From an uncultured Chloroflexota bacterium (GTDB lineage: Bacteria; Chloroflexota; Anaerolineae; Promineifilales; Promineifilaceae), in assembly GCA_900696625.1 (NCBI GenBank), contig CAADGU010000335.1:1-36624 (forward strand): a stretch of 36,624 nt of DNA, written 5' to 3'. The notes under the pieces were generated by a model. That model was not told the DNA's origin. It searched no databases and worked only from the letters and a program-made list of their open reading frames with translations. Within the stretch, counting starts at the first letter, position 1; each line of letters starts with the position of its first letter. A program made the position numbers and the translations under genes. Positions 6,916-28,840 of this stretch are shown one piece after another.

Positions 6916-6923
6916 GTGTATCT

Positions 6924-7935: not shown

Positions 7936-7954
7936 ATCAATTACAGAATGAGAG

Positions 7955-8016: not shown

Positions 8017-8019
8017 TCT

Positions 8020-8970: not shown

Positions 8971-8982
8971 GTGTACCTCTTG

Positions 8983-9579: not shown

Positions 9580-9606
9580 ATTGTTTCTCTCTACCTGCTT
9601 GTGAGA

Positions 9607-10236: not shown

Positions 10237-10244
10237 GAAGATGA

Positions 10245-10285
10245 GCAGGTGAGGGGGTGAGGGAGTAAGGAGGTGATTGATCACC
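10245..10285. repeat. GGTGAGGG-type short repeats ending in a palindrome
   Basis: Irregular 7-8 bp units (AGGTGAGGG, GGTGAGGG, AGTAAGG) run into AGGTGAT-TG-ATCACCT (10270-10285), a perfect 7-bp stem. It sits in the 67-bp gap between the SRAP gene and the HAD phosphatase gene. Confidence 0.6.
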
Positions 10286-10303
10286 TTGTCATCCCTTCGC
10301 CGG

Positions 10304-10987: not shown

Positions 10988-11107
10988 AACTTTGTCCTTA
11001 CTCTCTGGTCATTTGTCGTGGCCTGATTTTACCACACACCGCAGGCGTAAACATCAGCGCGTTAAACTTGCCGTATTTGTGTTAAAATCCGGCCATCTTT
11101 TGGAAAG

Positions 11108-11141
11108 AGACCTGACAGGTTTTTGGAAACCTGTCAGGTCT
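11108..11141. repeat. CCTGACAGG-family inverted repeat in the leader of the dehydrogenase gene
   Basis: AGACCTGACAGGTTT (11108-11122) and AAACCTGTCAGGTCT (11127-11141) form a perfect 15-bp stem with a 4-base loop. It ends 21 bp before the ATG at 11163 and a few bases before the AGAGG ribosome-binding site. A TAAAAT box at 11083-11088 could be the -10 element. If so, the hairpin would lie at the very 5' end of the transcript and could stabilise the message. Confidence 0.9.
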
Positions 11142-11162
11142 GGACGGAAAGAGGTAAAAACA

Positions 11163-11933
11163 ATGCAGATTCAAAAGCATACATTTTTGGTAACGGGGGG
11201 GAGTTCTGGCCTGGGCGCGGCCTGTGCGCGGCGGCTGGCGCAGGCCGGCGGAAACGTCATTATCGCCGATTTGAATGAGGCGGCGGGGGCGGAACTGGTG
11301 GCAGAGTTGGGCGGGACCGTTCGCTTTGCGCGGGTGGATGTAACCAGTGCGGCAGATGTGGACACGGCCGTGACAACGGCCGTGTCCACCTTTGGCGCCC
11401 TCCATGGTGTCATCAACTGCGCCGGTATTGCTATTGCCGCCAAACTGCTCGACCGCGAAGGCAATCCCCACGATTTTGATGCCTTTAACAAGGTCATTCA
11501 AGTCAACCTGATGGGCACATTTAACGTCATCCGGTTGGCGGCAGCGGTGATGAGCAAAGGGGAACCAAACGCTGTGGGCGAACGTGGCGTCATCATCAAT
11601 ACCGCTTCCGTGGCTGCGTATGATGGGCAAATTGGGCAGGTGGCCTATGCCGCCAGCAAAGGGGGGGTGGTGGCCCTGACGCTGCCCATCGCCCGCGAGC
11701 TGGCCCGCTTCGGCATCCGGGTGATGACCATTGCCCCCGGCATTTTTGAAACGCCGATGATGGCCGGGCTGCCGGAAAAGGCCCGCCAATCGTTGGCCGA
11801 ACAGGTTCCCTTCCCGTCTCGCCTGGGCCACCCAGACGAATATGCCGCCCTGGCGCAACACATCATTGAAAACGAAATGCTCAACGGCGAAGTTATCCGG
11901 CTCGACGGCGCGATCCGCATGGCGCCGAAATGA
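11163..11933 (+). CDS. type II 3-hydroxyacyl-CoA dehydrogenase-like short-chain dehydrogenase (HSD10-like)
   Basis: This 256-residue short-chain dehydrogenase has the NAD-binding TGGSSGLG at residues 10-17, IADLN for cofactor choice, NCAGIA, the active-site serine in [13 protein letters not shown], and YAASKGG with catalytic Tyr and Lys. The C-terminal [15 protein letters not shown] and [13 protein letters not shown] closely follow the HSD17B10/HADH2 pattern, so oxidation of 3-hydroxyacyl-CoA in beta-oxidation is likely. The ATG at 11163 follows AGAGG at normal spacing. An open frame extends upstream but its sequence is not SDR-like. It works in the same pathway as the acyl-CoA dehydrogenase at 32211-33407, though not in one operon. 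Confidence 0.9.
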
Positions 11934-11941
11934 TCAGAACC

Positions 11942-12000
11942 GTGGTGAGTAATGCGTGACTTGTGAGAGACCCGGTCACGCATCACCCACCACGCATCAC
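11942..12000. repeat. inverted array of GCGTGAY-type units between dehydrogenase and transketolase
   Basis: The left arm has GTGGTGAGTAATGCGTGAC and the right arm TCACGCATCACCC with CACGCATCAC, giving an imperfect hairpin. The GAGG of the transketolase ribosome-binding site follows directly after the right arm. Confidence 0.75.
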
Positions 12001-12011
12001 GAGGAAACAAC

Positions 12012-14000
12012 ATGACAACTTACAACCTGGAAAAACACCGTCTGGCGGCCAACACCATTCGTGGGCTGACGATGGACGCGGTGCAAAAAGCCAATATCGG
12101 CCATCCGGGGATGCCGATGGGCATGGCCGATGTGGCCGTAGTGCTGTGGACGCAATTTCTCAAACACAATCCCCAGGACCCGAAATGGTTTGACCGCGAT
12201 CGTTTTGTCCTGTCGGCCGGACATGGCTCGATGCTGCTGTACAGCCTGCTGCACCTGAGTGGCTATGATCTACCGATGGCGGAATTGATGCAGTTCCGGC
12301 AGTGGGGCAGTGCCACGCCGGGCCACCCGGAATACGGGCACACGCCGGGTGTGGAGACGACCACCGGCCCGTTGGGGCAGGGCATTACCAATGCCATTGG
12401 CATGGCGCTGGCAGAGAAATGGCTGGCGGCGCGTTTTAACCAGCCCGGTTTTGATCTGGTTGACCATTACACCTATGTCATTGCCAGCGATGGCGACCTG
12501 ATGGAAGGCATATCGGCCGAGGCATCTTCGCTGGCGGGGCATTTGGGGCTGAGCAAGCTGATTGTGCTGTATGACGATAACGGTATTACCATTGACGGCC
12601 GTACCAACCTGACCTTTAGCGAAGATGTGCTGGCGCGTTATGCAGCCTATGGCTGGCATACTACTCTTATAGATGGGCATGATCCGCTGGCTGTCATTGC
12701 TGCCATTCAAGAGGCGCAGGCGACAGACCAACCCGCTATCATCGCCTGCCGCACCCACATTGGCTATGGCAGCCCTAACCGGCAAGACACGGCCAAAGCG
12801 CACGGCGAACCGCTGGGCGAAGAAGAAATCCGCCTGACCAAAGAGGCATTGGGCTGGCCGTTGGAGCCATTGTTTTATGTGCCGGATGAAGTCCCCGCGT
12901 TTTTGGCCGGTAATGGCATCGCGCAGGTGGCCTGGGAAGAACTGTGGGGACGCTACCAGAAGGCGCACCCGGAACTGGCGGCGACGTTTCAACAGGCGAT
13001 TAACGGCGATCTGCCCACCAATTGGGGCGAGATCATGCCTACCTTTGAAGTGGGCAAGGCGCTGGCCACGCGCGCTTCCTCCGGCATGGTGCTAAATGCG
13101 ATTGCGCCGCATGTGCCTTATTTGCTGGGTGGTTCGGCCGACCTGACCGGCTCGAACAACACCGCGCTCAAGGGGGAAACGCCTCTGTCGCGGGATGATT
13201 TTTCGGGGCGGTATATTCATTATGGCATCCGCGAACATGGGATGGGCGGGATGATGAATGGTATGGCGCTGCATGGCGGGGTACGGCCGTATGGCGGCAC
13301 CTTCCTCGTTTTCTCTGACTACATGCGTGGCTCTGTCCGGCTGGCGGCGCTGATGGGGCTGCCGGTCATTTACGTGTTTACGCATGACAGCATTGGCCTG
13401 GGCGAAGACGGCCCCACCCACCAACCCATTGAGCAGTTGATGAGTTTGCGGGCGATACCGGGGCTGACGGTGATACGGCCGTGTGACGCCGTGGAAGCGG
13501 CCGAAGCCTGGCAAATCGCCCTGGAAAACAAGAGCGGTCCCACCGCCCTCATCCTGACACGCCAGCCTGTGCCCACGCTCAACCATGTGCAGTCACAAAT
13601 CACCGGCAGCGTGGCGCAAGGAGCGTATGTGATCAAGCGGCCCACCCGCCAGCCGCAGGTATTACTCCTGGCGACGGGGTCGGAAGTGGCGATTGCCCTG
13701 GAAGCGGAAAAGCTGCTGGCCGAACAAAGGGTGAGCGCGCAGGTGGTGTCCATGCCCTCCTGGGAACTGTTTGCCGCCCAGCCCGATGTTTACCGAAACA
13801 CAGTGCTGCCGCCGCACATCAAGGCGCGGGTTTCCATTGAAGCGGGCGTCACCCTGGGCTGGGAACGGCATATCGGCGACAACGGCAAAGCCATCGGCCT
13901 GAATCGCTTTGGCGCCTCGGCCCCGTACAAAACCATTTATGAAAAGTTGGGGCTGACGGCTGAAGCAGCGTCCCATGCGGCGTTATCATTGATACGTTGA
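12012..14000 (+). CDS. tkt: transketolase
   Basis: This 662-residue thiamine-diphosphate enzyme moves two-carbon units between sugar phosphates in the non-oxidative pentose phosphate pathway. Recognisable blocks are [19 protein letters not shown] at the N-terminus and [17 protein letters not shown]. The TPP/metal-binding segment reads [13 protein letters not shown]. In the pyrimidine domain, [12 protein letters not shown] and [19 protein letters not shown] are present, and IEAGVTLGW begins the C-terminal domain. Length equals the family norm. GAGG lies 7 bases before the ATG. An acetyltransferase gene starts 3 bases after its stop, and a remnant of ribulose-phosphate epimerase, a functional partner, lies 600 bp downstream. 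Confidence 0.97.
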
Positions 14001-14003
14001 GAA

Positions 14004-14552
14004 ATGAGTACCGAGTCGTTCATCATAACTTCTGCCCGGACGGAAGACTTAAATCCGACTACCCGAACAGCGATTATCCAGCTTTGTATCGCCGCGCATC
14101 AGCAAGAAGATTTCCAACACCTGTTTTCTTATGTCCCTTCGGGCGGCTTGCATTTCCTTGCTTATCGAGATGATCTGTTGATGGGTCATGCTCTGGTGAC
14201 AACCCGTTGGCTGCAACCGGAAGGTCATCCGATCTTGAAAACAGCCTATGTAGATGCTGTGGCTACGCTACCGGCCTCTCAAGGGTACGGTTATGGGAGC
14301 GCCCTCCTGCGTCGGCTGGCAAGCGAAATTGGTGATGAGTATGTCATTGCCTGTTTAGAGACGGAGCGAACGGCATTTTATAGCCGGTTGGGTTGGGAAG
14401 TCTGGCGCGGCCCTCTGGCCGGTCGGGATGAGCATGGTTTGATTCCCACACCAGATCAAACCGGCGTGATGATCTTGCGGCTGGAGCAAACACCTGCGCT
14501 TGATTTGGACCGAGGGTTAACAATAGAATGTCAGCCGGGACGTATCTGGTAA
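14004..14552 (+). CDS. GNAT acetyltransferase resembling aminoglycoside 2'-N-acetyltransferase
   Basis: This 182-residue protein has the GNAT fold. VDAVATLPASQGYGYGSALLRRLA corresponds to the acetyl-CoA-binding motif A, and AFYSRLGWEVWRGP to motif B. The C-terminal layout WRGP, then IPTPDQTGVMIL, then a final ECQPGRIW, resembles the mycobacterial AAC(2')-I enzymes as I remember them. That family acetylates aminoglycosides and probably also cell-wall precursors. Overall similarity may be modest, so a housekeeping substrate is possible. The ATG comes 3 bases after the transketolase stop, so the gene is translationally coupled. Whether it confers drug resistance cannot be judged from sequence. 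Confidence 0.7.
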   Translation: MSTESFIITSARTEDLNPTTRTAIIQLCIAAHQQEDFQHLFSYVPSGGLHFLAYRDDLLMGHALVTTRWLQPEGHPILKTAYVDAVATLPASQGYGYGSALLRRLASEIGDEYVIACLETERTAFYSRLGWEVWRGPLAGRDEHGLIPTPDQTGVMILRLEQTPALDLDRGLTIECQPGRIW

Positions 14553-14590
14553 TGTTGCAGAGAAACTTTGTTGAGAACCCAAAACAATAA

Positions 14591-14699
14591 GATAGCCCCT
14601 CCATTTTGGCAGCCGACTTTGCCCGGTTGGAGGCTCATGCGCGGGAGGCAGTGGCGGCGGGGGCTGATTGGCTGCATGTGGATGGGATGGACGGCCGTG
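14591..14699 (+). pseudogene. rpe: truncated ribulose-phosphate 3-epimerase (N-terminal remnant)
   Basis: Directly after a TAA (14588-14590) the frame reads DSPSILAADFARLEAHAREA, then VAAGADWLHVDGMDGR. This is the N-terminus of ribulose-phosphate 3-epimerase, whose family pattern is PSILAADFxRL followed by GADWxHxDxMDG. In an intact enzyme the sequence would continue HFVPNITxGP and run for about 220 residues. Here, homology stops right after MDG and the sequence passes through an ACGGCCGT octamer into a palindrome. No upstream ATG is in frame. The gene is clearly decayed; a functional copy should exist elsewhere. Confidence 0.8.
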
Positions 14700-14707
14700 T
14701 TAGGATC

Positions 14708-14734
14708 GTAGGACAATTTTCAAAATTGTCCTAC
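14708..14734. terminator. perfect 13-bp inverted repeat, possible bidirectional terminator
   Basis: GTAGGACAATTTT and AAAATTGTCCTAC surround a single C. It lies between the plus-strand rpe remnant and the convergent end of the Ser/Thr kinase gene, whose stop codon at 14731-14733 is inside the right arm. The same TTTT-C-AAAA centre is seen at 32171-32203. Confidence 0.65.
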
Positions 14735-17238
14735 GGCAGCGGCCAGATGGTAAATTCCTCGTAATCGGTGCTTTCGCCTTCAATTTCGTGGTCAAAGTAG
14801 AAGGCGGTGAAAATTTCCACGTCCCCGGCGTGAGTAATGTCAAACAGGTCTAGCTGCTCGATGAACTCGCCATTGACAAAAAAGAAACCGGTTTCTCCCC
14901 ACACTATCAAGGCCAGATCGTTGCTCTCATTCGCGCCCAAATTCAAATTGCGGATCCGCCCGCTTTGCAGGGTTGTGTCGCTGTCGGCGTCGCCGTAGCG
15001 ACCAACTAACTCCCATTCCCCTTCGGAAGCGATGACCAGCCAGTATTTGGTGCCGTCGTTATCATCGCGGAAGGAGAAGCCGAAGTCGAAATCATTAACG
15101 GCGGCGGCAAATGGGTTCATGAAGGTGGCGGTGGCGATGAGATTGCGCAGCCTGACGCCGGAATCCTCCAGCTTGATCAAATCATCCAGCGCATGATCTA
15201 ATTCACCATTGGCCGGTCCAAACTCTGGTTCCAGCGACCAGATGGCAAAATCCTCATATTCGGTCGTCGCGCCTTGCCGTTCGTTGCTGGTGTAAAAGCC
15301 GGTGCCCAATGCAATTTCGCCCTCATCTTGCCGCGCCGATAAATCCAGGGTGGCGATAAACTCTTCATTGAGGAAAAAGACGCCGGCATCGCCGAGGACG
15401 ATCAGGGTCAACTGGTTGGCCTGGTTCGGCTGCACATCCAGGATGCCAGAGACGTTGCCTTCCTGGATAAATTCATCGCCGTCCAGGCTGCGGTTGTTAA
15501 GATTCCAAAGGCCGTCTGAGCGCACCACCAGGCGCAATTCTTCGTCCGGCTCTACCTGGCGGAAGGTGACGCCGAAGTCCCAACTGCCAGCCTGGGTGGG
15601 GTAGGGGTTGAGAAAGTGGACATTCAGGACAAAATCGGCGGCGCTGATGCCGGGATAATACATTTCAATGGTGTTATCGCCGGGGTCATGGGGTAGTTCG
15701 CCGCTGGTGGGGCGCAGCAGGGCGTTCTGGTTGCTCAGTTCACCAAAGAGGTTGACGGGCTGGCTGGCGATGAGTGCGGCGCGGGTAGCTTCTAAACTTT
15801 GGCGGGTGGCCAGGGCGCTGGCGCTGCCGCTGTTGTTGTCGTCGTTGGTCTGGCCGCCGGCGGCGGCAGCGCGGGTGGCTTCCAGACTTTGGCGGGTCGC
15901 CAGGGCGTCATCCAGGGCGGGCACGGCCGTATTGGTGGGTATTGGCGTTGCTTCGGGCACGGCCGTGTCCGTGGGTGCAGATGTTGGGGAGGGAATAGGG
16001 GTATCGGTAGCTTCATCCAATGATCCAAACACGGATGTGCCGTTATTGTCGTTGTCCTGTATGGCAACGACCGTCGGTGTGGTGGTCTCCTCGCCACCGG
16101 TGAAGGCGTTGAATACTGCATACCCACCAATGACTGTACCCCCCAGACAAAACAGCGCCAACACGCCCAACAATACCAGCAGCCAGGTTGGTGTTTTGGC
16201 GCTGCCGCCGGTGGCGGCCAATTCTTCGCTGAAGGCCGGCTCGGCGTAGGCGGCAGCCGCCTGGGGCGTGGGGCGGGGCGGCGGCAGCGGTGTTGGTTCG
16301 GGTGATGGGGTGGGTTCGGGCACGGCCGTAGTCGTTAAGGTTTCTGTTGGTGCTGCTTCTGGTGGGGTAGTGGGCAGGGTAGGCGGCGGCGGGGGAGGAA
16401 CGGCCGTCAAATCCGGCTGTTTCATCTTTTGGGTGATGGCCGTCAGTTCGCTGGTCATGTCAGAAGCGGTAGAGAAACGATCATCGCGCTCTTTAGCCAT
16501 GGCTTTGCTGATCACCAGGTCACAGGGGGCCAGGTCAGGGCGTTTATCCACCAGGTGCGGCACCGGGTTCATCACATGGGCCATCATCATGCGCGCCGGG
16601 GTGTCGGCGTCGAAGGGGATTTCGCCGGTGAGCATTTGGTAGAGGATGACACCCAGGGCATAAATGTCGGAACGGCCGTCTAACTCCTTGTTGCCATACA
16701 CCTGTTCGGGACTCATGTAAGTGGGGGTGCCCACCAGGCTGCCGCTGGCGGTCAGCTGCGAACCGGCAGTGGTGATGCGGGCGATGCCAAAATCGGCCAG
16801 GAAGGCGTCGCCATAATGGTCAAACAGGATATTACCCGGCTTCAAATCACGGTGGATGATGCCCTGGCTGTGCGCCCGGTCTAAGGCCGAGCCAATCCGC
16901 TTCAAGATTTCGGCAGCCTCGTCAATGGGAATGGGGCCGTTTGCCAGCCGGTCATTAAGCGAACCGCCGGTCATCAGGCGCATCACCAGGAAGGGCTGCC
17001 CATCTTCTTCGCCAAAGTCATAGACGGGCACAATAGCCGGATGCTCCAAAGCGGCGATGGTGCGGGCTTCACGGGTGAAACGGGCGCGGAATTCGGGGTC
17101 ATGCAAAAATTCACGCGGCAGCAGTTTCACGGCGACGGGGCGCTGGAATTGGGGGTCATACGCTTCATAGACCGAAGCCATACCGCCCCGGCCAAGTTCT
17201 CGTTTAATTTCGTAACGGTTGATTTTTTCGGGGATCAT
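14731..17238 (-). CDS. membrane Ser/Thr protein kinase with two extracellular beta-sandwich-like modules
   Basis: This 835-residue receptor-type kinase has an intact catalytic domain at about residues 8-270: glycine loop GRGGMAS, VAVKLL with Lys38, HRDLKPGN at 129-136, DFG at 149-151 and MSPEQ at 175-179. A Pro/Thr-rich linker (about 280-330) leads to one membrane helix (WLLVLLGVLALFCLGG, about 352-367). Outside is a low-complexity stalk with two copies of ALATRQSLEATRAA (about 446-459 and 476-489), then two related modules (about 525-680 and 690-835). Each has a WDFG/FDFGFSFR strand, a W-[EN]-L segment and VFFLNEEFI or FFFVNGEFIEQLDL, resembling a concanavalin-like ligand domain. The ligand is unknown. 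Confidence 0.88.
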   Translation of the reverse strand: MIPEKINRYEIKRELGRGGMASVYEAYDPQFQRPVAVKLLPREFLHDPEFRARFTREARTIAALEHPAIVPVYDFGEEDGQPFLVMRLMTGGSLNDRLANGPIPIDEAAEILKRIGSALDRAHSQGIIHRDLKPGNILFDHYGDAFLADFGIARITTAGSQLTASGSLVGTPTYMSPEQVYGNKELDGRSDIYALGVILYQMLTGEIPFDADTPARMMMAHVMNPVPHLVDKRPDLAPCDLVISKAMAKERDDRFSTASDMTSELTAITQKMKQPDLTAVPPPPPPTLPTTPPEAAPTETLTTTAVPEPTPSPEPTPLPPPRPTPQAAAAYAEPAFSEELAATGGSAKTPTWLLVLLGVLALFCLGGTVIGGYAVFNAFTGGEETTTPTVVAIQDNDNNGTSVFGSLDEATDTPIPSPTSAPTDTAVPEATPIPTNTAVPALDDALATRQSLEATRAAAAGGQTNDDNNSGSASALATRQSLEATRAALIASQPVNLFGELSNQNALLRPTSGELPHDPGDNTIEMYYPGISAADFVLNVHFLNPYPTQAGSWDFGVTFRQVEPDEELRLVVRSDGLWNLNNRSLDGDEFIQEGNVSGILDVQPNQANQLTLIVLGDAGVFFLNEEFIATLDLSARQDEGEIALGTGFYTSNERQGATTEYEDFAIWSLEPEFGPANGELDHALDDLIKLEDSGVRLRNLIATATFMNPFAAAVNDFDFGFSFRDDNDGTKYWLVIASEGEWELVGRYGDADSDTTLQSGRIRNLNLGANESNDLALIVWGETGFFFVNGEFIEQLDLFDITHAGDVEIFTAFYFDHEIEGESTDYEEFTIWPLP

Positions 17239-17244
17239 AGGCCC

Positions 17245-17283
17245 TTGGGTAATTAAGTAATTGGGTAATTGGGTAATTGATGG
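17245..17283. repeat. direct GGGTAATT array in the leader of the kinase gene
   Basis: Four consecutive 8-bp units (GGGTAATT, AAGTAATT, GGGTAATT, GGGTAATT) lie immediately upstream of the kinase ATG on the minus strand. Unlike most sites of this family in the window it has no opposing arm, so it would not form a hairpin alone. Confidence 0.7.
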
Positions 17284-17340
17284 CGGAAATGTAGCATAAG
17301 GTACGGCCGTGAGGCAACCATCAATATTCCACCGGCAAAT

Positions 17341-18024
17341 TCATACCAGAAATCCTTTCAAGCCAGAGTAAAGGAACAAGAGGCCAAAAACCAGCGAGAC
17401 AACAATAACAATGACGCGGTTATTCCTGGTTAGCCAGCTTGAAACCCCATCCAGTACGAGTTGTGATCGTTTGGGCATTAATAGGCGAATAAAGATGGGC
17501 AGCAACAGCAAGGATTGAGCCAGCAAAATGAAGAGCAAATAAACGAGGGCATTGGTTGGCTGCTCCAATTCGGCATTAACAATGACAGCCAGCGCGCTGA
17601 GGGTGAAAACCCACAGTTTAGGCATGATCAGCGGCAGAAAAAAACCAAGAGCCAATGCTTTTAAGGGGGTCAAATTGCCGGCTGCGGCCAACCACTTTGG
17701 GGGCGGGTCATCCGGGTCTTCTTCACGGCTCCATTTCTTATAGGCGGCAATTAATAAGAGGATGCCCAGTACCGTGATCAATGTGGTGACTACCAGGCTT
17801 TGGCCGCTGCTGCCATCAACCTCTGCTGCGCCAGAGGAGGCAAACACCTGCCCAAAAACCAGACCTTGCAAGAGTCGGATCATCGTCATTCCTGTTACAT
17901 AGGCTATGCCTTTTGCCAGGCCTTGCCGGGGGCTTTGCAGGAGCAAAATGGCGAGGATGATTTGCACAGGCACAAGGGCGCTGCCGATGATATAGGGGCT
18001 TAGGGAAATGAGGATGGTTTCCAT
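17341..18024 (-). CDS. GAP-family (Sap/LysE-like) membrane protein
   Basis: This 227-residue protein has about six membrane helices. It starts METILISLSPYIIGSALVPVQ, a helix with a Pro, and contains QSPRQGLAKGIAYVTGMTMIRLLQG between helices 1 and 2. A charged cytoplasmic loop (KKWSREEDPDDPPPKW) splits the protein in half, as in LysE-like transporters. The pattern matches the GAP/SfLAP family, known from mycobacterial sulfolipid and glycopeptidolipid addressing proteins, so export of a lipid or small molecule is possible. The start at 18024 follows AAGGA at the right spacing; an in-frame start 23 codons upstream would include only hairpin-array sequence. Confidence 0.65.
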   Translation of the reverse strand: METILISLSPYIIGSALVPVQIILAILLLQSPRQGLAKGIAYVTGMTMIRLLQGLVFGQVFASSGAAEVDGSSGQSLVVTTLITVLGILLLIAAYKKWSREEDPDDPPPKWLAAAGNLTPLKALALGFFLPLIMPKLWVFTLSALAVIVNAELEQPTNALVYLLFILLAQSLLLLPIFIRLLMPKRSQLVLDGVSSWLTRNNRVIVIVVSLVFGLLFLYSGLKGFLV

Positions 18025-18053
18025 AGATGTTCCTTGATTTTTCAGGAAGCAAC

Positions 18054-18115
18054 GTGATGCGTGATGCGTGATGCGTGAGAATGCTCCGATCACGCATCAC
18101 GCATCACGCCATCAC
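18054..18115. repeat. inverted array of GCGTGAT 7-mers
   Basis: Positions 18060-18078 and 18090-18108 form a perfect 19-bp inverted repeat made of GCGTGAT units, with an 11-base loop. The right arm overlaps the end of the LOG-family gene, supplying its last codons (VMRDA and TGA), and the left arm is in the leader of the GAP-family gene. Confidence 0.92.
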
Positions 18116-18797
18116 GAATGATGGCGCAGGCTTCTTCGGGAGAGTCGGTGATGCGGAAAAGTTCCAGGTCAGTGGGGTTAATTTTGCCCTGAGCGAGCAT
18201 GGTATGGCGCAGCCACTCTATCAGCCCGCCCCAGAAGGCGGAGTCAAAGAGGACAACCGGGAAGTTGTTGATTTTGCCGGTCTGGATGAGGGTGAGCGTT
18301 TCAAACATTTCGTCTAGTGTGCCAAACCCACCGGGGAAGATAACGAGGCCCCGGGCATATTTGAGCAGCATGACTTTGCGGGTGAAAAAGTAGCGGAATT
18401 CTTTGCCCACGTCTACGTAGGGGTTCAAATCTTGCTCGAAGGGGAGTTCGATGTTCAGGCCAACGGAGACGACGCCGGCCTCCCGCGCCCCTTTGTTGGC
18501 GGCTTCCATGAGGCCGGGGCCACCGCCGGTCATGATGTTGAAACCGGCTTCTCCCAACAGGCGGGCTACCGCCACGGCCGTTTCATATTGCGCCTCCCCC
18601 GGTTGTACCCGCGCCGAACCGAAGATGGTTACGGCCGTGCCCAATTCCGCCAGCAAGTCAATCCCTTCCACCATCTCCCCCATCACCCGGAATATGCGCC
18701 AGGTATCTGTTTTGTAGTAGGGCATTGGCTCCAGATTTGGCCCGGCCAACAGCCGTTCATCTTCGGTGTGTTGTGGGGCAGGTTGCACCTTTTTCAT
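18090..18797 (-). CDS. LOG-family protein (TIGR00730 Rossmann-fold nucleotide hydrolase)
   Basis: This 235-residue cytoplasmic protein shows the LOG signature PGGFGTLDEMFE around residue 155, and the upstream MTGGGPGLMEAANKGA that builds the nucleotide site. GSARVQPGEAQYE opens the Rossmann fold. The family cleaves nucleoside monophosphates to base and ribose 5-phosphate (cytokinin-activating in plants; AMP/IMP-type hydrolases in bacteria). The N-terminal 40 residues before the fold (PAPQHTEDERLLAGPNLEP) resemble the longer bacterial subgroup. AGGAG precedes the ATG. The last residues VMRDA come from the GCGTGAT array, so the natural C-terminus may have been altered by that element. Confidence 0.9.
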   Translation of the reverse strand: MKKVQPAPQHTEDERLLAGPNLEPMPYYKTDTWRIFRVMGEMVEGIDLLAELGTAVTIFGSARVQPGEAQYETAVAVARLLGEAGFNIMTGGGPGLMEAANKGAREAGVVSVGLNIELPFEQDLNPYVDVGKEFRYFFTRKVMLLKYARGLVIFPGGFGTLDEMFETLTLIQTGKINNFPVVLFDSAFWGGLIEWLRHTMLAQGKINPTDLELFRITDSPEEACAIIRDGVMRDA

Positions 18798-18862
18798 TTG
18801 CTCCTGTTCCTTTTCGATTGTTGGGCGATTTGGAAAATCACCCGACAGCTTTTCGTTGGCAG

Positions 18863-18891
18863 ATCATATGGCAGGTAAGAGAAGTTGACAA
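18863..18891 (-). promoter_or_regulatory. sigma-70-like promoter of the LOG-family gene
   Basis: On the minus strand TTGTCA (complement of 18886-18891) and TATGAT (complement of 18863-18868) are separated by exactly 17 bases. Each matches five of six consensus positions. The start site would be near 18856, giving a leader of about 60 bases before the ATG at 18797. The gap 18798-18961 is otherwise empty. Confidence 0.6.
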
Positions 18892-18961
18892 TCAGAAAGA
18901 TGTAGGAGTGCTGCTCACCCACCCCATTACCTCTGAAAACTGCAAACTTATCCCCAAACAA

Positions 18962-19642
18962 TTACGACATCTCACCCTTTTGGCCCATTCCCGCTTCAAT
19001 CGCCATCAACATTAATTTGGCCCGGTCGGTGGTTTGAACCTTGAGTAATACATTGGAGATGTAGTTGCTCACCGTTTTGGGACTCAGGTTCAGGATGGTA
19101 GCGATCTCGGTGTTTGTTTTGCCCTGGGCGATCAACTCCAGGATTTCACGCTCGCGCGGGGTAAGCTCGTCAAAAATGGTAACCGACACATGGGCCATTG
19201 CCGGCGGCGGTGGCATCGTCAGGTACCCCAGCACTTTCTGGGCGATGCCGGGGCTGAAAATAGCGCCGCCATTGGCAACCGTGTGAATGGCGCGCAGCAG
19301 CTCATCCTGTTCCGTGTCTTTGAGCAGATAACCACGTGCCCCGGCACGGATGGCGGGGAAGACGGAGGTGTCATCCTCAAAAACGGTGAGGATTAAAATG
19401 CCGATGTGCGGGCTGGTGCGGTGAATGAGACGGGTGGCTTCGATGCCGTTCAAACCGGGCATCCGCAAATCCATCAAGATGACATCAGGCTGTAAAGCTG
19501 TTGCCAGTGCCACGGCCTCTTCGCCGTGACGGGCTTCGCCGACAATTTCAAGATTTCCCACGGCCGTTAAGAGCATTTTCAGACCGCTGCGGGTAATGGC
19601 CTGATCGTCGGCGATGAGAATGCGAATGGTGTCCATGTCCAT
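18962..19642 (-). CDS. NarL/LuxR-family response regulator
   Basis: This 226-residue regulator has a receiver domain (residues 5-125) with the acidic pair ADD at 11-13, the phospho-acceptor Asp58 in VILMDLRMPG, a Thr/Ser switch in ILILTVFEDD, and Lys in GYLLKDTEQDELL. The C-terminal HTH (about 155-215) is typical of LuxR: LTPREREILELIAQGKTNTEIATIL, with SPKTVSNYISNV as recognition helix. It starts 3 bases after the histidine kinase gene, forming an ordinary two-component pair. The downstream target is unknown; the LOG-family gene has its own promoter, and the beta-helix protein lies upstream in the same direction. Confidence 0.93.
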   Translation of the reverse strand: MDMDTIRILIADDQAITRSGLKMLLTAVGNLEIVGEARHGEEAVALATALQPDVILMDLRMPGLNGIEATRLIHRTSPHIGILILTVFEDDTSVFPAIRAGARGYLLKDTEQDELLRAIHTVANGGAIFSPGIAQKVLGYLTMPPPPAMAHVSVTIFDELTPREREILELIAQGKTNTEIATILNLSPKTVSNYISNVLLKVQTTDRAKLMLMAIEAGMGQKGEMS

Positions 19643-19645
19643 TAT

Positions 19646-21739
19646 TTACCTTACCTGGATGGGACAGGGTATGCGCGCGGTCACGGCCGTGCCGCCGCCC
19701 GCATGTGCCCCAATCACACAAATGCCACCCACTTCCGCCGCCCGCGCCTGCATGGAAATCAGCCCCAGGCCGCCGGTTGATGGTTCCGCCAAACCGCGCC
19801 CGTTATCCTGAATATCCAATTCTAAAATAGAAGGATGGGATGCCGCCGACAAATTCAGGCGAACATGACAGGTCTGGGCCTGGGCGTGTTTTTCAATGTT
19901 GGTCAGGGCTTCGAGGGTGATGTAGTAAACGGCCGTTTCAATTTCCGCCGGTAAACGTGGCAAATTTTCGGGAGCATCCAGATGAACGTGCAAGTTGATC
20001 TGAGTTTCGGCGCGTTCACGCAGCGCCCCCACCAGCCCCAACAGTTCCAACTCTGGCGGGTATAATTGGTGCGCCAGGCCACGTACTTGTTTGGTAAGTG
20101 CCGCCAATTGCTGGTTGATGGCGGCGAGCTGCGATTGTGCCTGTGCCTGATCGTCGTGCATGAGGGTCATGGCATGTTCCAGTTGGCGTGTCAGACTCAC
20201 CAGTTGATGTCCCACACGATCATGTAAATCGCTGCCCAACTGTCGCCGGGCTTCGCCGCGTTCTGTCACCAGCCGCAGGCGGGCCTGTTCCAGATTGGTG
20301 GTCAGCAAGACGGCATGGGCGGCGGCCCCCAGTTGGTGGGCTAAATCGGCCAACAGGCGTTGGTCGGTGGGAGTCAATGGTTCTTTAGGAGAACGAGAGG
20401 CTGTTTGCAGTTCCCCCATCAGCTGCCCGGCATACGTTAGAGGATAGCGACTGATTTCATTTTGGGGCACACCGTACACGGCCGTTGCCTGCATCTCATC
20501 ACCTTGTTGTAATACAATCGCCACATAAGGCAGTTTGAGCGCCTGGGCCACCGTTTCTGCCGTCACCGTTAGCGCCGCTGCCGGGTTTAGCGCCGATTCT
20601 AGCTGCTGGCTGAGGCGGGTCAGCAGTTGATAAGGTTTGTCACGCTGCCCGTAAAACAGGCGGTTAATCTGCTGCTCCACATAGTTTTTGAGCGGCGTAA
20701 ACAGCACAGCCACCAGACTGGCGGCTACCAGGGAAAAAACGAGGTTCTCCCCTTCTATCTGGAACAAGAACCCCAAATACCCCACAACCAGCACATATAA
20801 ACTGATGACACAGACGATCATGATCCCATAGACGACGGTTTTACGGATGATGAGGTCAATTTCCCACAGCCGGTAACGCAAGATGGCAAATGTCACCGCC
20901 ACCGGGATGGTAGCGGTGACCAGGGTTAAGGAGGCGGTGCGCAGCAGGGAGTACCACATGCCCTGGCTGTTGATAGCGTTGACTGTCGGGCTGATGTAGA
21001 TGAGGTTGAGCAGCAGCTTAAAGACCAGATTCAGCACGATGGCCCATAACACCCATTTCATCTGTTGGCGCTGCACGGCCGTTCCCACCACACGATAGCG
21101 GTAAATCTGGCTGAGCACGCCCAACAGAAACAAAAAAGAGCTGATGATCGATAAGTAGGGGGCCGGTGGTCGTGTTGGCTGCGGCTGCAAAAAACCGATG
21201 TAGACGATAAATAAGCCGGTGACTGCTCCTACCCAACGCATCTGCCGCGGCACAAAACGGCCGTCAGGAAACACAAACACCAGAAATATCAACAATCCAT
21301 ACGCCAGCGCTGCCAGCCCATATGCCAGCCGATCTCCCCAATAGCCCCACTGCTCCAGCACAAAGGGCAGATCGTTTGACCCGACGCCAAACAGCACCAG
21401 ACTCAAAGCAAACAACAGGCCAAAGGTGTCACGCCGGCATCGCCTGAGAACAAACAGACCCAGGCCAATGTAGAAAACGGCCGTGAGCAAAATAAACCCC
21501 AGCCGCCACCACAAATAGGTCTCCACCGTCCACCCCAGGCTGGATAACGCTGCCAGCGCCGCGGGCGTTGTCCAGCTTCCGTTGGGTAAAATGCGCGGCG
21601 GCATTTGTTGGGCATAATGGGGAAACTGCCACAGCGCCCATACGCCAAAGAGCAGGCAGGCAGCAATCGCGGCGATCACCAGCACACGCAGTCCCGACAT
21701 ATCGGCTTGATGCCACCAAGTTTGACGCTGTTCAACCAT
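19646..21739 (-). CDS. NarX/DesK-type membrane sensor histidine kinase
   Basis: This 697-residue kinase has roughly eight to ten membrane helices in its first 350 residues, a GAF-like domain at about 375-480, and a HisKA_3 dimer helix with GSDLHDRVGHQL (phospho-acceptor His506). The ATP-binding domain has the N box EALTNIEKHAQ, a G1 box DIQDNGRGL and GGLGLISMQARAAEVGG. This is the usual partner of NarL-type regulators, and the regulator gene follows after 3 bases. The large hydrophobic N-terminus lacks a big extracytoplasmic loop, so the signal is likely sensed within the membrane or by the GAF domain. The stimulus is unknown. Confidence 0.9.
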   Translation of the reverse strand: MVEQRQTWWHQADMSGLRVLVIAAIAACLLFGVWALWQFPHYAQQMPPRILPNGSWTTPAALAALSSLGWTVETYLWWRLGFILLTAVFYIGLGLFVLRRCRRDTFGLLFALSLVLFGVGSNDLPFVLEQWGYWGDRLAYGLAALAYGLLIFLVFVFPDGRFVPRQMRWVGAVTGLFIVYIGFLQPQPTRPPAPYLSIISSFLFLLGVLSQIYRYRVVGTAVQRQQMKWVLWAIVLNLVFKLLLNLIYISPTVNAINSQGMWYSLLRTASLTLVTATIPVAVTFAILRYRLWEIDLIIRKTVVYGIMIVCVISLYVLVVGYLGFLFQIEGENLVFSLVAASLVAVLFTPLKNYVEQQINRLFYGQRDKPYQLLTRLSQQLESALNPAAALTVTAETVAQALKLPYVAIVLQQGDEMQATAVYGVPQNEISRYPLTYAGQLMGELQTASRSPKEPLTPTDQRLLADLAHQLGAAAHAVLLTTNLEQARLRLVTERGEARRQLGSDLHDRVGHQLVSLTRQLEHAMTLMHDDQAQAQSQLAAINQQLAALTKQVRGLAHQLYPPELELLGLVGALRERAETQINLHVHLDAPENLPRLPAEIETAVYYITLEALTNIEKHAQAQTCHVRLNLSAASHPSILELDIQDNGRGLAEPSTGGLGLISMQARAAEVGGICVIGAHAGGGTAVTARIPCPIQVR

Positions 21740-21790
21740 TGCCGAGAATTATCCGGTAGGGCCGCCATGCCCGCAAACCAGATATGCCGC

Positions 21791-23503
21791 CTACCGTTTG
21801 GCAAACGGTAAGTACACCTGCCACACAAAACCGCCCACTTCAACCGCGCCACTATCGCAGCCGCTGCCGATGGGGCGTGTGCCGCCGCGCTGGTCTGTGG
21901 CAAAATCGCACGACGCGGGTGGAATGATGTCAACCGCCTGATTGCCCGCCAACGGCAGCCGGGAGCCGGTGCTGCCGCCATTGTTAGCAAAGGGGGCCAG
22001 GGGCAGGGTGGCGTTTTGCATGTCGCCTGTTTGGGTAAAGCTGGGGCAGCTCCCGTTATCACTCAGGTTATAGCCGGTGGAGCCAATGCCGCTGCTGCAG
22101 TTGCCGCCGCTGTTGTGGGCGACAATAGATTTGTTGATGGTGATCGTGCTGCCATTGCTGCCATTGGAGAGACCGCCGCCGGTAACGGCCGTATTGTCCA
22201 CAATGGTCGCATATTGAATGAAAGCGGCGGCATTCCCATCCTGGTGAATGGCCCCGCCAACACTGTTCGCGCCATTAGCCTCGTTGTCGCTCAAGGTCAG
22301 GTTGCTCATGTTCAAAGAACAGGTGCTATACACAGCCCCGCCATCTCCGGCAATGGCTTCGTTATAAGCCAGCCCGGAGAGAATCACCGACATAAAAGCG
22401 TTAAAGCAGCCGATGGCGCCGCCGTTCACAACCGCTTTGTTCTCTACAAACTGGGTGCGCTCCACATCCAGGTCGCCGCCCGATAGGTAAATAGCGCCCC
22501 CCTCGCTGTTGGCGGCGTTGCCATCAAACAGGTTGTCATGCACGATCAGGCGGATACCTGAAAAGTTGATGGCGCCGCCGCTCAGACTGCTGTTGGTGTG
22601 GAAACGGGATTGCGTGACGGTGAGGTTGGTGGTAACGGTGGACAAAATCGCGCCGCCCGCATTAACCGCCGCGTTCAAATCGAAGGTGTTGTCCTCTATC
22701 GTCGTCTGCCCGGCCACAAACAGCGCCCCACCCGTATCAGAAGCCCGATTGTTGTAGAAGGTATTACCCGGTTCCAGCGTAACGACGGCGTAATCAAAGG
22801 GGTTATGAATGGCTCCACCGCGCCGCGCCTCATTTTCAAAAAATGTTGACTGGCTGACGGTCACATCCGCGCCCCACAATAAAATCGCGCCGCCCCAGCC
22901 GTTGGTGACATTGGTCGTCCGGTTATGGCGAAAGGTGCTGTTGGTAATGGTTGCGTCGCCAGCTTCAAAACGCAGGTAAAGCGCGCCGCCATTGCCACCC
23001 ACGTTGTTCTCAAACAGGCTGTTGGTGATGGTCAACGGCCCATAATTCACAATGGCCCCACCGCTGTAGCTGCTGCTCACGCTGCTGTCACGAATGGTCG
23101 TGTTGTCCAGGGTTAAAATGCCGTTGTTGTTGATGGCCCCTCCGTCGTTTGTATTGCTGAAGCCATTGCTCAGGGTAATGTTTCGTAGATGGAGCGTACC
23201 GCCAAATACTAAAAACAGGCGCGTGCTGTTGCCGCCGTTGAGTGTGATTTGATTCGCGCCGTCTATGGTCACGGCCGTTGAAATACTCTTCTCAAACGTG
23301 AAGGGAATGGTGGCTTCACCGCCACAGTTAAAGGTGATGGCACCGCCGCCGCTGCTTTGCACACTGGAAAGGGCCGTGTTGAAGGCCGCTTCGGTGCAGC
23401 TTGCGGCCGTCCCTGTGCCCACCACAGCATCGGCGGCGTGCAACGGCCGTATCCCACCCACCACAATCCACATCAATAAAAACAAACCGGTTAATTGTTT
23501 CAT
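21791..23503 (-). CDS. secreted parallel beta-helix surface protein (choice-of-anchor Q type)
   Basis: This 570-residue protein has a signal peptide (MKQLTGLFLLMWIVVGGIRP with cleavage after LHA). The body is a right-handed beta-helix, with many repeats of patterns such as SGGAIVNYGPLTITNSLFENN and NGGALY/GGAI turns, as in polymorphic outer-membrane or pectate-lyase-like surface proteins. The C-terminal region (RLPLAGNQAVDIIPPASC, TDQRGGTRPIG, CDSGAVEVG) matches the choice-of-anchor Q domain. The last residues are VYLPFAKR. I chose the ATG at 23503, preceded by GAGGAAG; the longer frame begins with TTG. It lies 51 bp upstream of the histidine kinase and may share its transcript. Confidence 0.88.
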   Translation of the reverse strand: MKQLTGLFLLMWIVVGGIRPLHAADAVVGTGTAASCTEAAFNTALSSVQSSGGGAITFNCGGEATIPFTFEKSISTAVTIDGANQITLNGGNSTRLFLVFGGTLHLRNITLSNGFSNTNDGGAINNNGILTLDNTTIRDSSVSSSYSGGAIVNYGPLTITNSLFENNVGGNGGALYLRFEAGDATITNSTFRHNRTTNVTNGWGGAILLWGADVTVSQSTFFENEARRGGAIHNPFDYAVVTLEPGNTFYNNRASDTGGALFVAGQTTIEDNTFDLNAAVNAGGAILSTVTTNLTVTQSRFHTNSSLSGGAINFSGIRLIVHDNLFDGNAANSEGGAIYLSGGDLDVERTQFVENKAVVNGGAIGCFNAFMSVILSGLAYNEAIAGDGGAVYSTCSLNMSNLTLSDNEANGANSVGGAIHQDGNAAAFIQYATIVDNTAVTGGGLSNGSNGSTITINKSIVAHNSGGNCSSGIGSTGYNLSDNGSCPSFTQTGDMQNATLPLAPFANNGGSTGSRLPLAGNQAVDIIPPASCDFATDQRGGTRPIGSGCDSGAVEVGGFVWQVYLPFAKR

Positions 23504-23552
23504 CTGTTTCTTCCTCAAAAATTTGTGGCTCAACAGGATTTCGTGGGGTCCG

Positions 23553-23615
23553 GCGTGACATGTGACGAGTGATGCATGTGGTTTCTCTGGTCACGCATCA
23601 CACGTCACGCATCAC
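23553..23615. repeat. inverted GCGTGAY array beside a CCTGAGCTTGTCGAAGG motif
   Basis: GCGTGACATGTGACGAGTGA faces TCACGCATCACACGTCACGC as an imperfect hairpin. Immediately after comes CCTGAGCTTGTCGAAGG (about 23623-23639), a semi-palindromic motif I recall as common in many bacterial genomes. Both are in the 361-bp divergent region between the beta-helix gene and the aminotransferase gene; no clear promoter was found in the rest of that gap. Confidence 0.7.
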
Positions 23616-23772
23616 AGCCTGCCCTGAGCTTGTCGAAGGGGCCTGTCAACCCCCTGAATTTCCAAAGAGCCAAAACCTCTGCGTTAGCCGCGTTTTTGCG
23701 GTCAAATCCACGGAGGTCTGGTAGTTACAAAACATCTGCATCATAGTAGAGTGTGTGGCCTGGGCAGCCAAG

Positions 23773-23804
23773 AGACTTTTTCCCAAGTTTTCGGGAAAAA
23801 GTCT
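23773..23804. repeat. perfect 12-bp inverted repeat upstream of the aminotransferase gene
   Basis: AGACTTTTTCCC and GGGAAAAAGTCT enclose an 8-base loop. It sits 61 bp before the ATG at 23865. It resembles the palindromes at 32171 and 33423, each with an AGAC-type start and T/A-rich centre. Confidence 0.8.
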
Positions 23805-23864
23805 GGTCGGATTCCCGCTCAGGTTTGCGCCTGCTTACCGCTTCATTTGCGATACAATCCCCGC

Positions 23865-24722
23865 ATGACAATACAATGGTTTGCGATAGAAGAGAAAGGG
23901 GTACGGCCGTTGCCCATTCCCAATGGCGTGTCCACATTTGATGGCCTGTATGATGGGCTGGCGTTAGGGGTTTATTCCGCGCTGCGTACCTTTGCCCACC
24001 ATAAATTCCTGCACCTGCAAGGCCACATTGACCGCACGGTACAATCCATGCGGCTGCTGGGCTGGGAATATGTGCTGGATGAAAAACGGCTGCGGCGGGC
24101 GCTGCATCAGGTATGTATGGCCTTTCCGTTTTCAGAGGCACGGGTGCGCTTTGATGTGCTGGCCGCGCCACCGACGCACCTGGGTACAACCAGTCGGGAG
24201 TTGATCGCTCTGCTGCCGTTTGCGCCGCCTGACCCGGCGTTGTATGCGAACGGGGTGGTGGTAGAGGTGACGCACGATTTGCACCGGACACGGCCGTTGG
24301 CTAAAACCGCCGACTTTGCCCAGGCGCGCCGGGTGTATCCGGTTGGTGGCGACGTGTACGAGTATATTCTGGTAGACGAAGCCGGTCATTTGTTGGAAGG
24401 CACGGGCACCAATTTTTATGGCGTGCAGGAGGGGGTGCTGCGCACGGCGGGCAGCGGCGTGCTGGCCGGCATCACCCGCCGCATCGTGCTGGAATTGGCG
24501 GCAGAATTGGGCATACCGGTGGATTTAACGGCCGTACACCTTGACGAAATCCCCCATTTACAGGAAGCAGCGGTTAGCGGGTCATCGCGGGCCATCGTGC
24601 CGGTAGTGCAGATTAGCGGGCAGGTGGTGGGCGACGGCCGTCCCGGCCCCATTTGCCAGCGCCTCCTGACGGCATATAATTCGTTTGTCTCACGAGATAT
24701 TAAAACGGCGGTAGAGGAGTAA
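23865..24722 (+). CDS. class IV (branched-chain/D-amino-acid type) aminotransferase
   Basis: This 285-residue PLP enzyme belongs to fold type IV. It has KTADFAQARR near residue 145, containing the PLP-binding Lys of the family. LLEGTGTNFYGVQEGVLRTA and LAGITRRIVLELA bind the cofactor phosphate. The final EAAVSGSSRAIVPVVQISG matches the closing motif of IlvE and related enzymes. Which amino acid it uses (branched-chain, D-alanine or aminodeoxychorismate lyase activity) is not clear: the branched-chain specificity residues are not recognisable. The ATG at 23865 starts MTIQWFAIEEKG; an upstream frame extension of 38 codons crosses the palindrome and is not conserved-looking. Confidence 0.85.
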   Translation: MTIQWFAIEEKGVRPLPIPNGVSTFDGLYDGLALGVYSALRTFAHHKFLHLQGHIDRTVQSMRLLGWEYVLDEKRLRRALHQVCMAFPFSEARVRFDVLAAPPTHLGTTSRELIALLPFAPPDPALYANGVVVEVTHDLHRTRPLAKTADFAQARRVYPVGGDVYEYILVDEAGHLLEGTGTNFYGVQEGVLRTAGSGVLAGITRRIVLELAAELGIPVDLTAVHLDEIPHLQEAAVSGSSRAIVPVVQISGQVVGDGRPGPICQRLLTAYNSFVSRDIKTAVEE

Positions 24723-24785
24723 TTGGGCAATTGGGTAATTGAGTAATTTGTGCTCAATTACCCAATTGCCCAATTACCCAATTAC
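24721..24785. repeat. inverted GGGTAATT array with a perfect 23-bp stem
   Basis: Positions 24721-24743 and 24753-24775 are exact reverse complements around a 9-base loop, built from AATTGGGY and AATTGAG units. It fills the whole gap between the aminotransferase stop and the pyrE start, so the pyrE ribosome-binding region lies next to the hairpin and no clear SD is visible. Confidence 0.95.
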
Positions 24786-24790
24786 ATTCA

Positions 24791-25396
24791 ATGACCACAC
24801 AAGAAAATTCCCCTCTGGAAAAATTCGCTCTGACTTTGTTTGATGTCGGCGCCGTACAGCTTGGTAAGTTTGTGCTGCACAGCGGCCGCACCTCGCGCAT
24901 TTATTTAGACTTGCGCGTCCTGGTTTCTTACCCGGAGGCGCTGCGGCAGGCCACGGCCGCTTACCGGCAGGTGTTGGAAAAGCTAACCTTTGACCTGTTG
25001 GCGGCGCCGCCACTGGCCGGGCTGCCCTTTGGCACTGCGCTTTGCCTGGACATGAACATCCCCCTCATTTACCCGCGCAAAACTTCCAAAAGTTACGGCA
25101 CGGGCAAGGATATTGAAGGTGTGTGGGAGGTGGGGCAGACGGCCGTGGTCATTGATGATGTGATCACCTCCGGCGACAGCATTATGGAGGCGATGATCGC
25201 CCTCAAAGCCGCCGGTTTGCAGGTGAATGAGGCGGTGGTGTTAATTGATCGCGAACAGGGCGGCAAAGAGATCATGCAAGAACATGGCTACACCGTTCAC
25301 GCCGCCATGGCCATCTCCCAACTGCTGGACATTTTACAAACCCACGAACGCATTACTGAAAAACAGTATGCCAAAGTGTTGAAATCGTTGAAGTGA
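24791..25396 (+). CDS. pyrE: orotate phosphoribosyltransferase
   Basis: This 201-residue enzyme makes orotidine 5'-phosphate from orotate and PRPP in pyrimidine synthesis. The PRPP-binding motif VVIDDVITSGDS is at residues 119-130. The N-terminal GAVQLGKFVLHSGRTSRIYLDLR and the flexible loop PRKTSKSYGTGKDIEG are typical of PyrE. Length matches the family. No other pyr gene is adjacent. The gene is flanked by palindromic arrays on both sides, and no strong Shine-Dalgarno sequence precedes its ATG. Confidence 0.95.
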   Translation: MTTQENSPLEKFALTLFDVGAVQLGKFVLHSGRTSRIYLDLRVLVSYPEALRQATAAYRQVLEKLTFDLLAAPPLAGLPFGTALCLDMNIPLIYPRKTSKSYGTGKDIEGVWEVGQTAVVIDDVITSGDSIMEAMIALKAAGLQVNEAVVLIDREQGGKEIMQEHGYTVHAAMAISQLLDILQTHERITEKQYAKVLKSLK

Positions 25397-25446
25397 TTAG
25401 AGATTAGAGATTGGACGATCTCCAATCTCCAATCTCCATTGGAGAA
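25394..25446. repeat. inverted GATTGGA array between pyrE and the acyl-CoA synthetase
   Basis: Three left-arm units (GATTAGA, GATTAGA, GATTGGA) face TCTCCAATCTCCAATCTCC, giving a hairpin with one mismatch. The GGAGA immediately after it (about 25441) also works as the ribosome-binding site for the downstream ATG at 25452, so folding could affect translation. Confidence 0.85.
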
Positions 25447-25451
25447 TCCCC

Positions 25452-28812: not shown

Positions 28813-28840
28813 CGAGAGCCTCCTTGAAATAAATGTGTTG

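Follow-up and report, generated by a model that had tools for sequence, protein, structure and literature searches.

Tandem-unit hairpins at gene ends supply stop codons and some final residues in an uncultured Chloroflexota genus

Introduction

Can a dispersed repeat write the end of a protein? The question arises at the 3' end of a LOG-family gene in the window, by which we mean the whole stretch of DNA analysed here, one complete contig of 36,624 nt from a 6.95-Mb, 641-contig genome of an uncultured Chloroflexota bacterium. At this point the reading frame runs into a hairpin whose arms consist of GCGTGAT heptamers. A sequence-only reading of the window had proposed that such arrays add short tails to proteins, move stop codons and give rise to in-frame extensions upstream of two genes. 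Here we compare the hairpins of the window with the orthologous sites in sister species and with a survey of congeneric sequence.

Materials and Methods

The hairpin and gene survey covered 1,271,081 bases (1.27 Mb), consisting of parts of six congeneric genomes in which some bases are masked (N). The window's genome is denoted G000 and its sisters in the same genus G001 to G005. We ran our own hairpin finder and a codon-model gene caller on this sequence, with N excluded. The survey includes pieces picked by synteny to array-rich regions, and orthologues are counted more than once. Locus L125 was left out because it overlaps L052, and fourteen hairpins containing ACGGCCGT were kept separate. 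This octamer is frequent across the window, and we take it to be comparable to HIP1.

Pairs whose coding flanks are more than 95% identical were excluded from the comparison of C-termini, for which rows needed at least 60 nt downstream of the stop; the 243 gene-by-species rows include some poor orthologue matches (e.g. L079:1620-2081). The filter for tiled arms fixed part of the GTRA core, and the repeat analysis required the core of the consensus only. Protein ends are written up to the stop codon.

Results

The end of the LOG gene. Read on the minus strand (18797-18090), the gene closes with ATT CGT GAT GGC GTG ATG CGT GAT GCG TGA, or IIRDGVMRDA and stop, and DGVMRDA, the final seven residues, falls within or adjoins the GCGTGAT array. 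GCGTGAT units make up the last codons and the TGA, so that the array does encode the final residues and the stop, as had been proposed. The hairpin (Table 1) contains perfect 20-nt arms at 18059-18109 and reaches -46.8 kcal/mol (z -6.6) when folded as RNA, with 0 of 200 shuffles as good. Comparison with array-free homologues, in which a shared ending would have spoken against the sequence-only reading, reveals different ends: the protein ends in IIRDGVMRDA (G000) and IIRDGVMREA (G001) with the hairpin, and in IIRQALQGTV in G003 and G004, where no hairpin was found. The end in G002 is IISQALKGIV, and a different hairpin begins 25 nt downstream. Since the hairpin-free sisters end with seven different residues, the LOG array represents a same-length replacement of the end. 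The proposal that arrays add tails is thus borne out at this gene as far as a changed end is concerned, but the proteins are of equal length and no tail has been added.

Table 1. Positions in the window of the hairpins, palindromes and genes discussed in the text
Feature	Position	Strand	Remarks
GTAATTGG octamer hairpin	6926-6986		Holds TGA of permease gene 6979-7893 (minus)
GAGATTRG octamer hairpin	7959-8008		Downstream of permease gene 8020-8970; other palindromes there in G002-G005
GCGTGAT-type hairpin between SDR and transketolase genes	11941-11994		RNA fold z -5.3
Palindrome CGTAGGACAATTT..AAATTGTCCTACG, GTAG-tagged, REP-like	14707-14735		Holds TAG of Ser/Thr kinase gene 14731-17238
SfLAP (GAP-type, PF11139) gene	17341-18024	-	Codon-model call; likely start ATG 18024-18022, after hairpin
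GCGTGAT heptamer hairpin, about 3.7-3.9 copies per arm	18053-18116		TRF; on minus strand holds LOG last residues and TGA
LOG-family protein (Pfam Lysine_decarbox, PF03641 at residues 97-225)	18090-18797	-	235 aa
GTAATTGG hairpin	24719-24777		Begins at TAA of class IV aminotransferase gene (ends 24722)
GATTGGA heptamer hairpin	25400-25436		Directly past stop of phosphoribosyltransferase gene (ends 25396)
GTAATTGA/GTAATTGG hairpin, convergent genes	28196-28243		RNA fold z -9.1
Palindrome, minus strand AAGACCCTAAGGGTTT, separate family without 7/8-nt period	33423-33457		Holds S9 peptidase TAA
GATTGGA heptamer hairpin between genes 35704-36624 and S9	35651-35697		S9 in-frame extension crosses to 35688

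The proposed N-terminal extensions fare differently. Upstream of the SfLAP gene, the frame is open through the array to 18093, but the extension is probably not coding, judging from G003 and G004, where the SfLAP ATG lies 8 nt past the LOG stop with no array between them. The GTG start at 18093, inside the array, is probably an artefact. The open frame upstream of the S9 peptidase gene likewise exists and is likewise probably not coding, the likely start being the ATG at 35625-35623. In G004, the S9 alignment starts adjoining the Met that comes after the window's array. A similar array in G002 and G003 is also crossed by the open S9 frame, with alignments running from query residues 1 and 12; because of this, the reading as a start artefact rests on G004.

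Other gene ends in the window. The four further stops that had been placed inside palindromes (14731, 28199, 28240 and 33448) were all located within inverted repeats by the hairpin finder, and their relation to the protein end differs from gene to gene. At 28240, a hairpin-supplied end is probable: the SdrD-like protein ends in SKEIE in the window, in KVAG in G002 and G003 and in KVTGQK in G004. Its TAA lies in one arm of the convergent hairpin, and the other arm holds the TAA (28199) of the acetyl-CoA synthetase-like gene. The latter protein shows no altered tail, being of the same length with near-identical residues in G000 and G002-G005, with the hairpin found in G000 only. No alteration is evident for the kinase stop at 14731 either, as WPLP closes the protein in G000-G004, including the palindrome-free G002-G004, and the palindrome is present in G000 and G001 only. 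The S9 stop at 33448 gives a mixed picture. The protein ends in THLARP in G000 and G003, which have the palindrome, and in THL in G004, which lacks it, but G002, also palindrome-free, has a longer and different end, HLLPAAGDGKPATGN. Since that end differs without any palindrome, the S9 C-terminus is variable anyway.

Several ends stay the same next to changing hairpins. The aminotransferase (window 23910) keeps AVEE with its hairpin (RNA fold -47.6 kcal/mol, z -11.3), without one (G002) and with another, and reads AVE in G005. The stops at 14731, 24722 and 28199 look native, as the protein end changes little whether the hairpin is there or not. The phosphoribosyltransferase junction carries a GATTGGA-type hairpin in G000 and G003, AGATTGGTGCAATCT in G002, a GTGTCAAG-type in G004 and an AAAACGT-type in G005, and the protein end across them is near-constant (VLKSLK; VLKSLR in G005). 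Permease 6979-7893 ends in YSN both in the window and in G002, where another, unrelated hairpin is present, and the hairpin at 6926-6986 has one 8-nt unit fewer in G001. At the junction 11941-11994, a GTAATCC-type hairpin is found instead in G003 and G004. Over 12.4 kb, G000 and G001 differ by 381 substitutions and 7 indels, one of which is exactly one array unit. Window 4935-17376 is 97% identical in DNA to L086 (G001:C12), and the nearby LOG part that was searched is 87% identical to G001; this contrast may reflect recombination between lineages.

Abundance and polarity. In all fetched sequence with N excluded, the finder returned 381 hairpins, as against 9, 8 and 4 in three block shuffles, and 156 of the 381 are of the array type, with tandem units. 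Five main unit families span 129 of the 156 arrays; the units of the elements are GTRA plus 3 or 4 bases, or GAGATTRG. Within one array, heptamers with a GTNA core vary mostly at positions 3 and 5, with mainly A or G at position 3, and mixed units occur in 74 of 125 tiled heptamer arms under the filter that fixes part of the core. The core is no better conserved where an array overlaps a stop. Strict hairpin patterns match 103 times (GTAATTGG) and 39 times (GCGTGAT) in the window's genome, long arrays being counted repeatedly, and the GTAATTGG pattern with its arms swapped matches there once. Neither strict pattern has a match in G005. Hairpin loops are common to another hairpin within the genome sample, which is a part of each genome, in 4 of 124 cases, and two G003 loci have the same loop among the genome-wide matches listed. 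No Rfam family matched the window at the gathering score.

Among 959 complete genes in the 1.27 Mb, 55 have their stop within an array hairpin (in loci chosen independently of synteny, 22 of 553), with 13/151, 15/193, 14/394, 4/57, 9/142 and 0/22 in G000 to G005, respectively; 29 further gene ends fall in non-array hairpins. Between one and eight complete hairpin-coded codons precede the stop in 36 of the 55 (at least three in 24), and none in 19. By junction, the arrays divide into 104 tandem, 21 convergent and 15 divergent, with 7 inside genes and 9 at contig edges. Overlap with the stop is not enriched: at 100 tandem gene ends, 33 overlaps were observed against 49.5 expected for arrays placed freely in the gap and the final 30 bases of the coding sequence, and stop codons as a specific target were rejected on this ground.

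The arrays display a pronounced polarity. Read on the plus strand, the 5' arm carries more stops than the 3' arm in 113 arrays, fewer in 13 and as many in 30 (p=4.5e-21, with related species treated as independent), and the ratio read on the minus strand is 104:15. The bias recurs in every well-sampled genome (18:1 in G000, 31:3 in G001, 40:6 in G002, 20:2 in G004), in arrays downstream of stops (51:6) and at divergent junctions (12:1). The same bias at divergent junctions indicates that polarity belongs to the element and is not imposed by gene ends; selection for stops as its cause was rejected for the same reason. Three frames are closed by 48 of the 156 5' arms, two by 53, one by 31 and none by 24, so that 132 carry a stop. 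Stops per nucleotide amount to 0.032 in real 5' arms vs 0.008 in 3' arms, and to 0.024 vs 0.011 in shuffled ones (four N-run rows included), and the C-poor composition of the 5' arm accounts for part of the asymmetry.

Unit turnover between species. The position of a hairpin is kept between species, and its unit is often different. The orthologues of L079:4455-5504 illustrate this most clearly: they end in LRSKQ (G000, G001), LSRDA (G002) and LKGNR (G003, G004) with the same frame and length, and the units behind these ends are GTAAGCA, GTGATGC and GTAATCG, respectively. Five species have SGQ, SER, GNQ, GNP and GNR at the end of L079:11407-13527, a hairpin being found in two of them. Further unit swaps occur at L079:2114-2779 and L079:2803-4227. 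At the latter, several species have outer GTAATCG/GTAATCC units, and G000 and G001 have an inner GTGATGC hairpin, which looks like a replacement inside an older array. GTRA heptamer runs at and after the stop of L079:5570-8839 and its orthologues, in five species, resemble direct arrays that lack the inverted arm.

Both species of a pair are occupied in 71 of 136 pairs vs 43.3 expected (gap 25-250 nt, without G001, p=2e-4, 5000 permutations). With look-alikes removed (identity <0.64 kept), the both-occupied fraction is 0.59 vs 0.39 permuted (p=0.001, 1000 permutations), or 0.38 vs 0.27 when no gap filter is applied (p=0.002), in a set that still contains some diverged homologues. Such co-occupancy could come from long or exposed gaps as well as from function. 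Of 54 unlike pairs, 35 have start offsets no more than 10 nt apart, compared with 51% of random pairs, a small effect, and both hairpin-occupied and empty versions of orthologous sites were seen. The hairpins change more quickly than the adjoining gene ends: where coding flanks are 88-95% identical, hairpin identity averages 63%; it is 0.90 where flanks exceed 95%, and the baseline between different genes is 46%. Among 51 homologous hairpin pairs, there are 27 compensated stem changes (19 distinct events in 9 genes) vs ~0.9 expected if the arms were independent, a count raised by the finder's selection of paired stems and by the counting of one convergent hairpin from both genes. The same 51 pairs contain 28 unpaired changes and 11 G-T changes.

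C-terminal effect across genes. Where one or both members of a pair have an array-coded tail, identity is 0.43 for the last five residues and 0.90 for the upstream core (58 pairs, 9 genes). Pairs with the stop in a hairpin and no coded tail give 0.48 and 0.82 (57 pairs, 14 genes), and those with the stop outside hairpins 0.62 and 0.82 (285 pairs, 52 genes). As the no-tail hairpin class is also low, low identity of the last five residues is not specific to array-coded tails. The gene-level test of array-coded tails against stops outside hairpins is borderline (p=0.07), and in 2 of the 9 tail genes (window 6979 and 23910) the ends do not follow the array. The C-terminal effect is hence clear in single genes and borderline statistically.

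Discussion

We regard it as probable that these arrays are dispersed REP-like polar palindromes in which genes come to an end, kept in position while their units are replaced in place, with protein tails as a tolerated by-product. Two arms of tandem 7- or 8-nt units form such an element, which lies mostly at gene 3' ends, and the period of 7 or 8 nt shifts stops through the frames, so that a gene entering the element usually ends within it. An array starting upstream of the stop encodes the final codons, and in several genes with unlike units the C-terminus is also unlike. We hypothesize that a unit is replaced inside an old hairpin via microhomology of the GTRA core, slippage and templated correction from arm to arm. 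The tails may then be no selected trait, and new ones would be tolerated by the proteins because the frame usually closes soon. The position might be kept by a role of the hairpin in the transcript, in the stability of the mRNA 3' end or in translation near the stop, or by the persistence of a selfish repeat. By analogy with REPs, one can speculate about protection of the mRNA end or an effect on translation around the stop codon; such a role is reported, in the accessible text of PMC12306157, for REPs <16 nt away from a stop. A bolder version, in which a dedicated or emergent process keeps the hairpin and swaps the unit in place and in frame, rewriting C-termini between sister species, is put forward tentatively, as conceivable but not likely.

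The same hairpins could instead be mobile REPs or MITEs, moved as finished elements by a RAYT-type (Y1 HUH) transposase, with unit differences reflecting independent insertions at safe sites. Short palindromes downstream of genes agree with this, as do Y1_Tnp homologues in 15 of 15 genomes searched, the concentration of most arrays in five unit families and the GTAG-tagged repeats reported in Chloroflexi in the available part of PMC3733652. A ~145-nt repeat (window ~23526-23671) holds a related hairpin and has many copies in G001, and the loop shared by two G003 loci among the matches listed also fits. We nevertheless consider this account unlikely, since loops in these partial genome samples are mostly unique, and mosaic arms together with the identical frame and start at L079:4455 favour change in place. 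Furthermore, there are 2 Y1_Tnp homologues in G005, which has no array-pattern match, and 2 in G000, which has the most GTAATTGG matches. RAYT copy number as the driver was rejected, as Y1_Tnp counts do not track array counts.

That the arrays are stop cassettes, selected to secure termination at gene ends with stops in three frames, seems improbable to us, despite the many 5' arms that close two or three frames and a heptamer position 3 that toggles mainly between A and G with the stop kept. Two or three frames are closed in 41 of 51 stop-holding arrays vs 44 of 78 other gene-facing ones, the first group being partly so by definition. Polarity, however, is the same at divergent junctions, the core is no better kept in stop-overlapping arrays, and the 19 of 55 overlapping arrays noted above encode no full codon before the stop. 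Intrinsic (Rho-independent) terminators that are incidentally repetitive would explain strong stems at gene 3' ends, convergent junctions included, and one array of the window (28196-28249) scores terminator-like. Against this, 17 of 311 flanks have TTTT no further than 12 nt from the stem vs an intergenic background of 731 of 12715, terminator-like sites number 16 vs 14.5 in shuffles (window 17000-29000), and at several junctions the hairpin directly precedes the ribosome-binding site of the next gene. With T-runs at background, U-tract termination is not supported, and we judge this explanation very improbable. Least credible of all is a product of chance or gene calling, with ORFs extended into noise: it is probably true of the two N-terminal extensions (SfLAP and S9), but the stops of orthologues fall on one aligned codon in several species, the excess of hairpins over shuffles (381 vs 4-9) is large, and RNA folds beat shuffles.

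How do the arrays compare with known systems? As REPs are, they are short, many-copy, mostly extragenic palindromes downstream of genes. In cyanobacteria, STRRs are tandem heptanucleotide repeats scattered through the genome, and the arrays resemble them as tandem heptamers dispersed in a bacterial genome; we know of no palindromic arms or stop polarity in STRRs. In the literature covered, which includes Chloroflexi and consists largely of papers outside subscription, we found no description of tandem-unit arms with interchangeable units and unit change at a kept position. Stops from palindromes, three-frame stop heptamers and C-terminal residues given by MITEs are already known, and the arrays here are a variant.

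Intergenic stem-loops soon after stop codons are described as common in bacteria in the available text of PMC1590033. As far as the accessible part of PMC3733652 goes, the ends of GTAG REPs are often the source of the TAG stop of a neighbouring ORF, and overlaps with N-termini may in many cases be extragenic. The arrays are like GTAG REPs, which have a tag at one end, in being short palindromes downstream of genes and in supplying stops. In contrast, the arms of the arrays are built from 7- or 8-nt units in tandem, the majority of which contain a stop, and several unit families exist per genome, with different units at one site in sister species. No catalogued unit begins with GTAG, the core being GTRA or GAGATT. 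The palindrome at window 14707-14735 carries GTAG, is no array and resembles an ordinary GTAG REP. It had prompted the thought that a right arm might be copied in inverse from the end of the gene itself, which we have given up.

The TAACTGA repeats of Beggiatoaceae, also stop-bearing heptamers at gene ends, are described in the portion of PMC4679880 available as giving three-frame stops, as being in forward orientation only at ORF ends and as overlapping the stop of the upstream gene in 13 cases. According to the same text, they are direct repeats (with one inverted case), mostly oriented towards the start codon and built of one unit, in contrast to the inverted GTRA/GAGATT units here; TAACTGA is absent from the unit catalogue of the array hairpins. 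QMITE insertions at 3' ends in Coxiella contribute residues to the C-terminus, as with 33 residues of EnhC in a single strain, and are described as MITEs in the accessible part of PMC5896051, as opposed to the tandem-unit hairpins here.

If this interpretation is right, a few percent of genes take their stop, and some their last residues, from repeats that turn over faster than the genes themselves. This would affect start and stop calls, C-terminal tagging and the comparison of orthologues. It would also provide a natural experiment on the spread of small palindromes, with junctions that can be compared with three or more different hairpins. Because position and sequence are separable, the persistence of REP-like hairpins becomes testable.

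Other Repeats in and around the Window

Apart from the arrays, the window holds other repeats. The ~145-nt stretch at 23526-23671 is MITE-like and contains a GTGACGA/GTGATGC-type hairpin; it has many copies in G001 (81-94% identical among the matches listed), with fewer listed in G002-G004. Palindromes of a second family, recognizable by their ACCTGACAGG..CCTGTCAGGT arms, are found at 8983-9018, 11108-11141 and 29697-29759. In five species, the stop of gene 9016-9480 lies in or adjoins such a palindrome, and in G002 one supplies the stop of the L079:8874-9521 orthologue (...GQT). At L092 and L096 (G003, G004), the DppD orthologue of window gene 5911-6915 continues through a AGGGTTTC..GAAACCCT-type palindrome, which codes for SLRVSETLRN near the C-terminus; the window gene ends otherwise.

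Near the start of the window, 41-nt tandem repeats form two arrays, at 62-297 (5.8 copies) and 329-493 (4.0 copies). A 67-nt stretch occurs twice, at 2376-2442 and 2974-3040, with 96% identity, and longer stretches overlapping this pair match several places in G001, G002 and G004 (82-95%).
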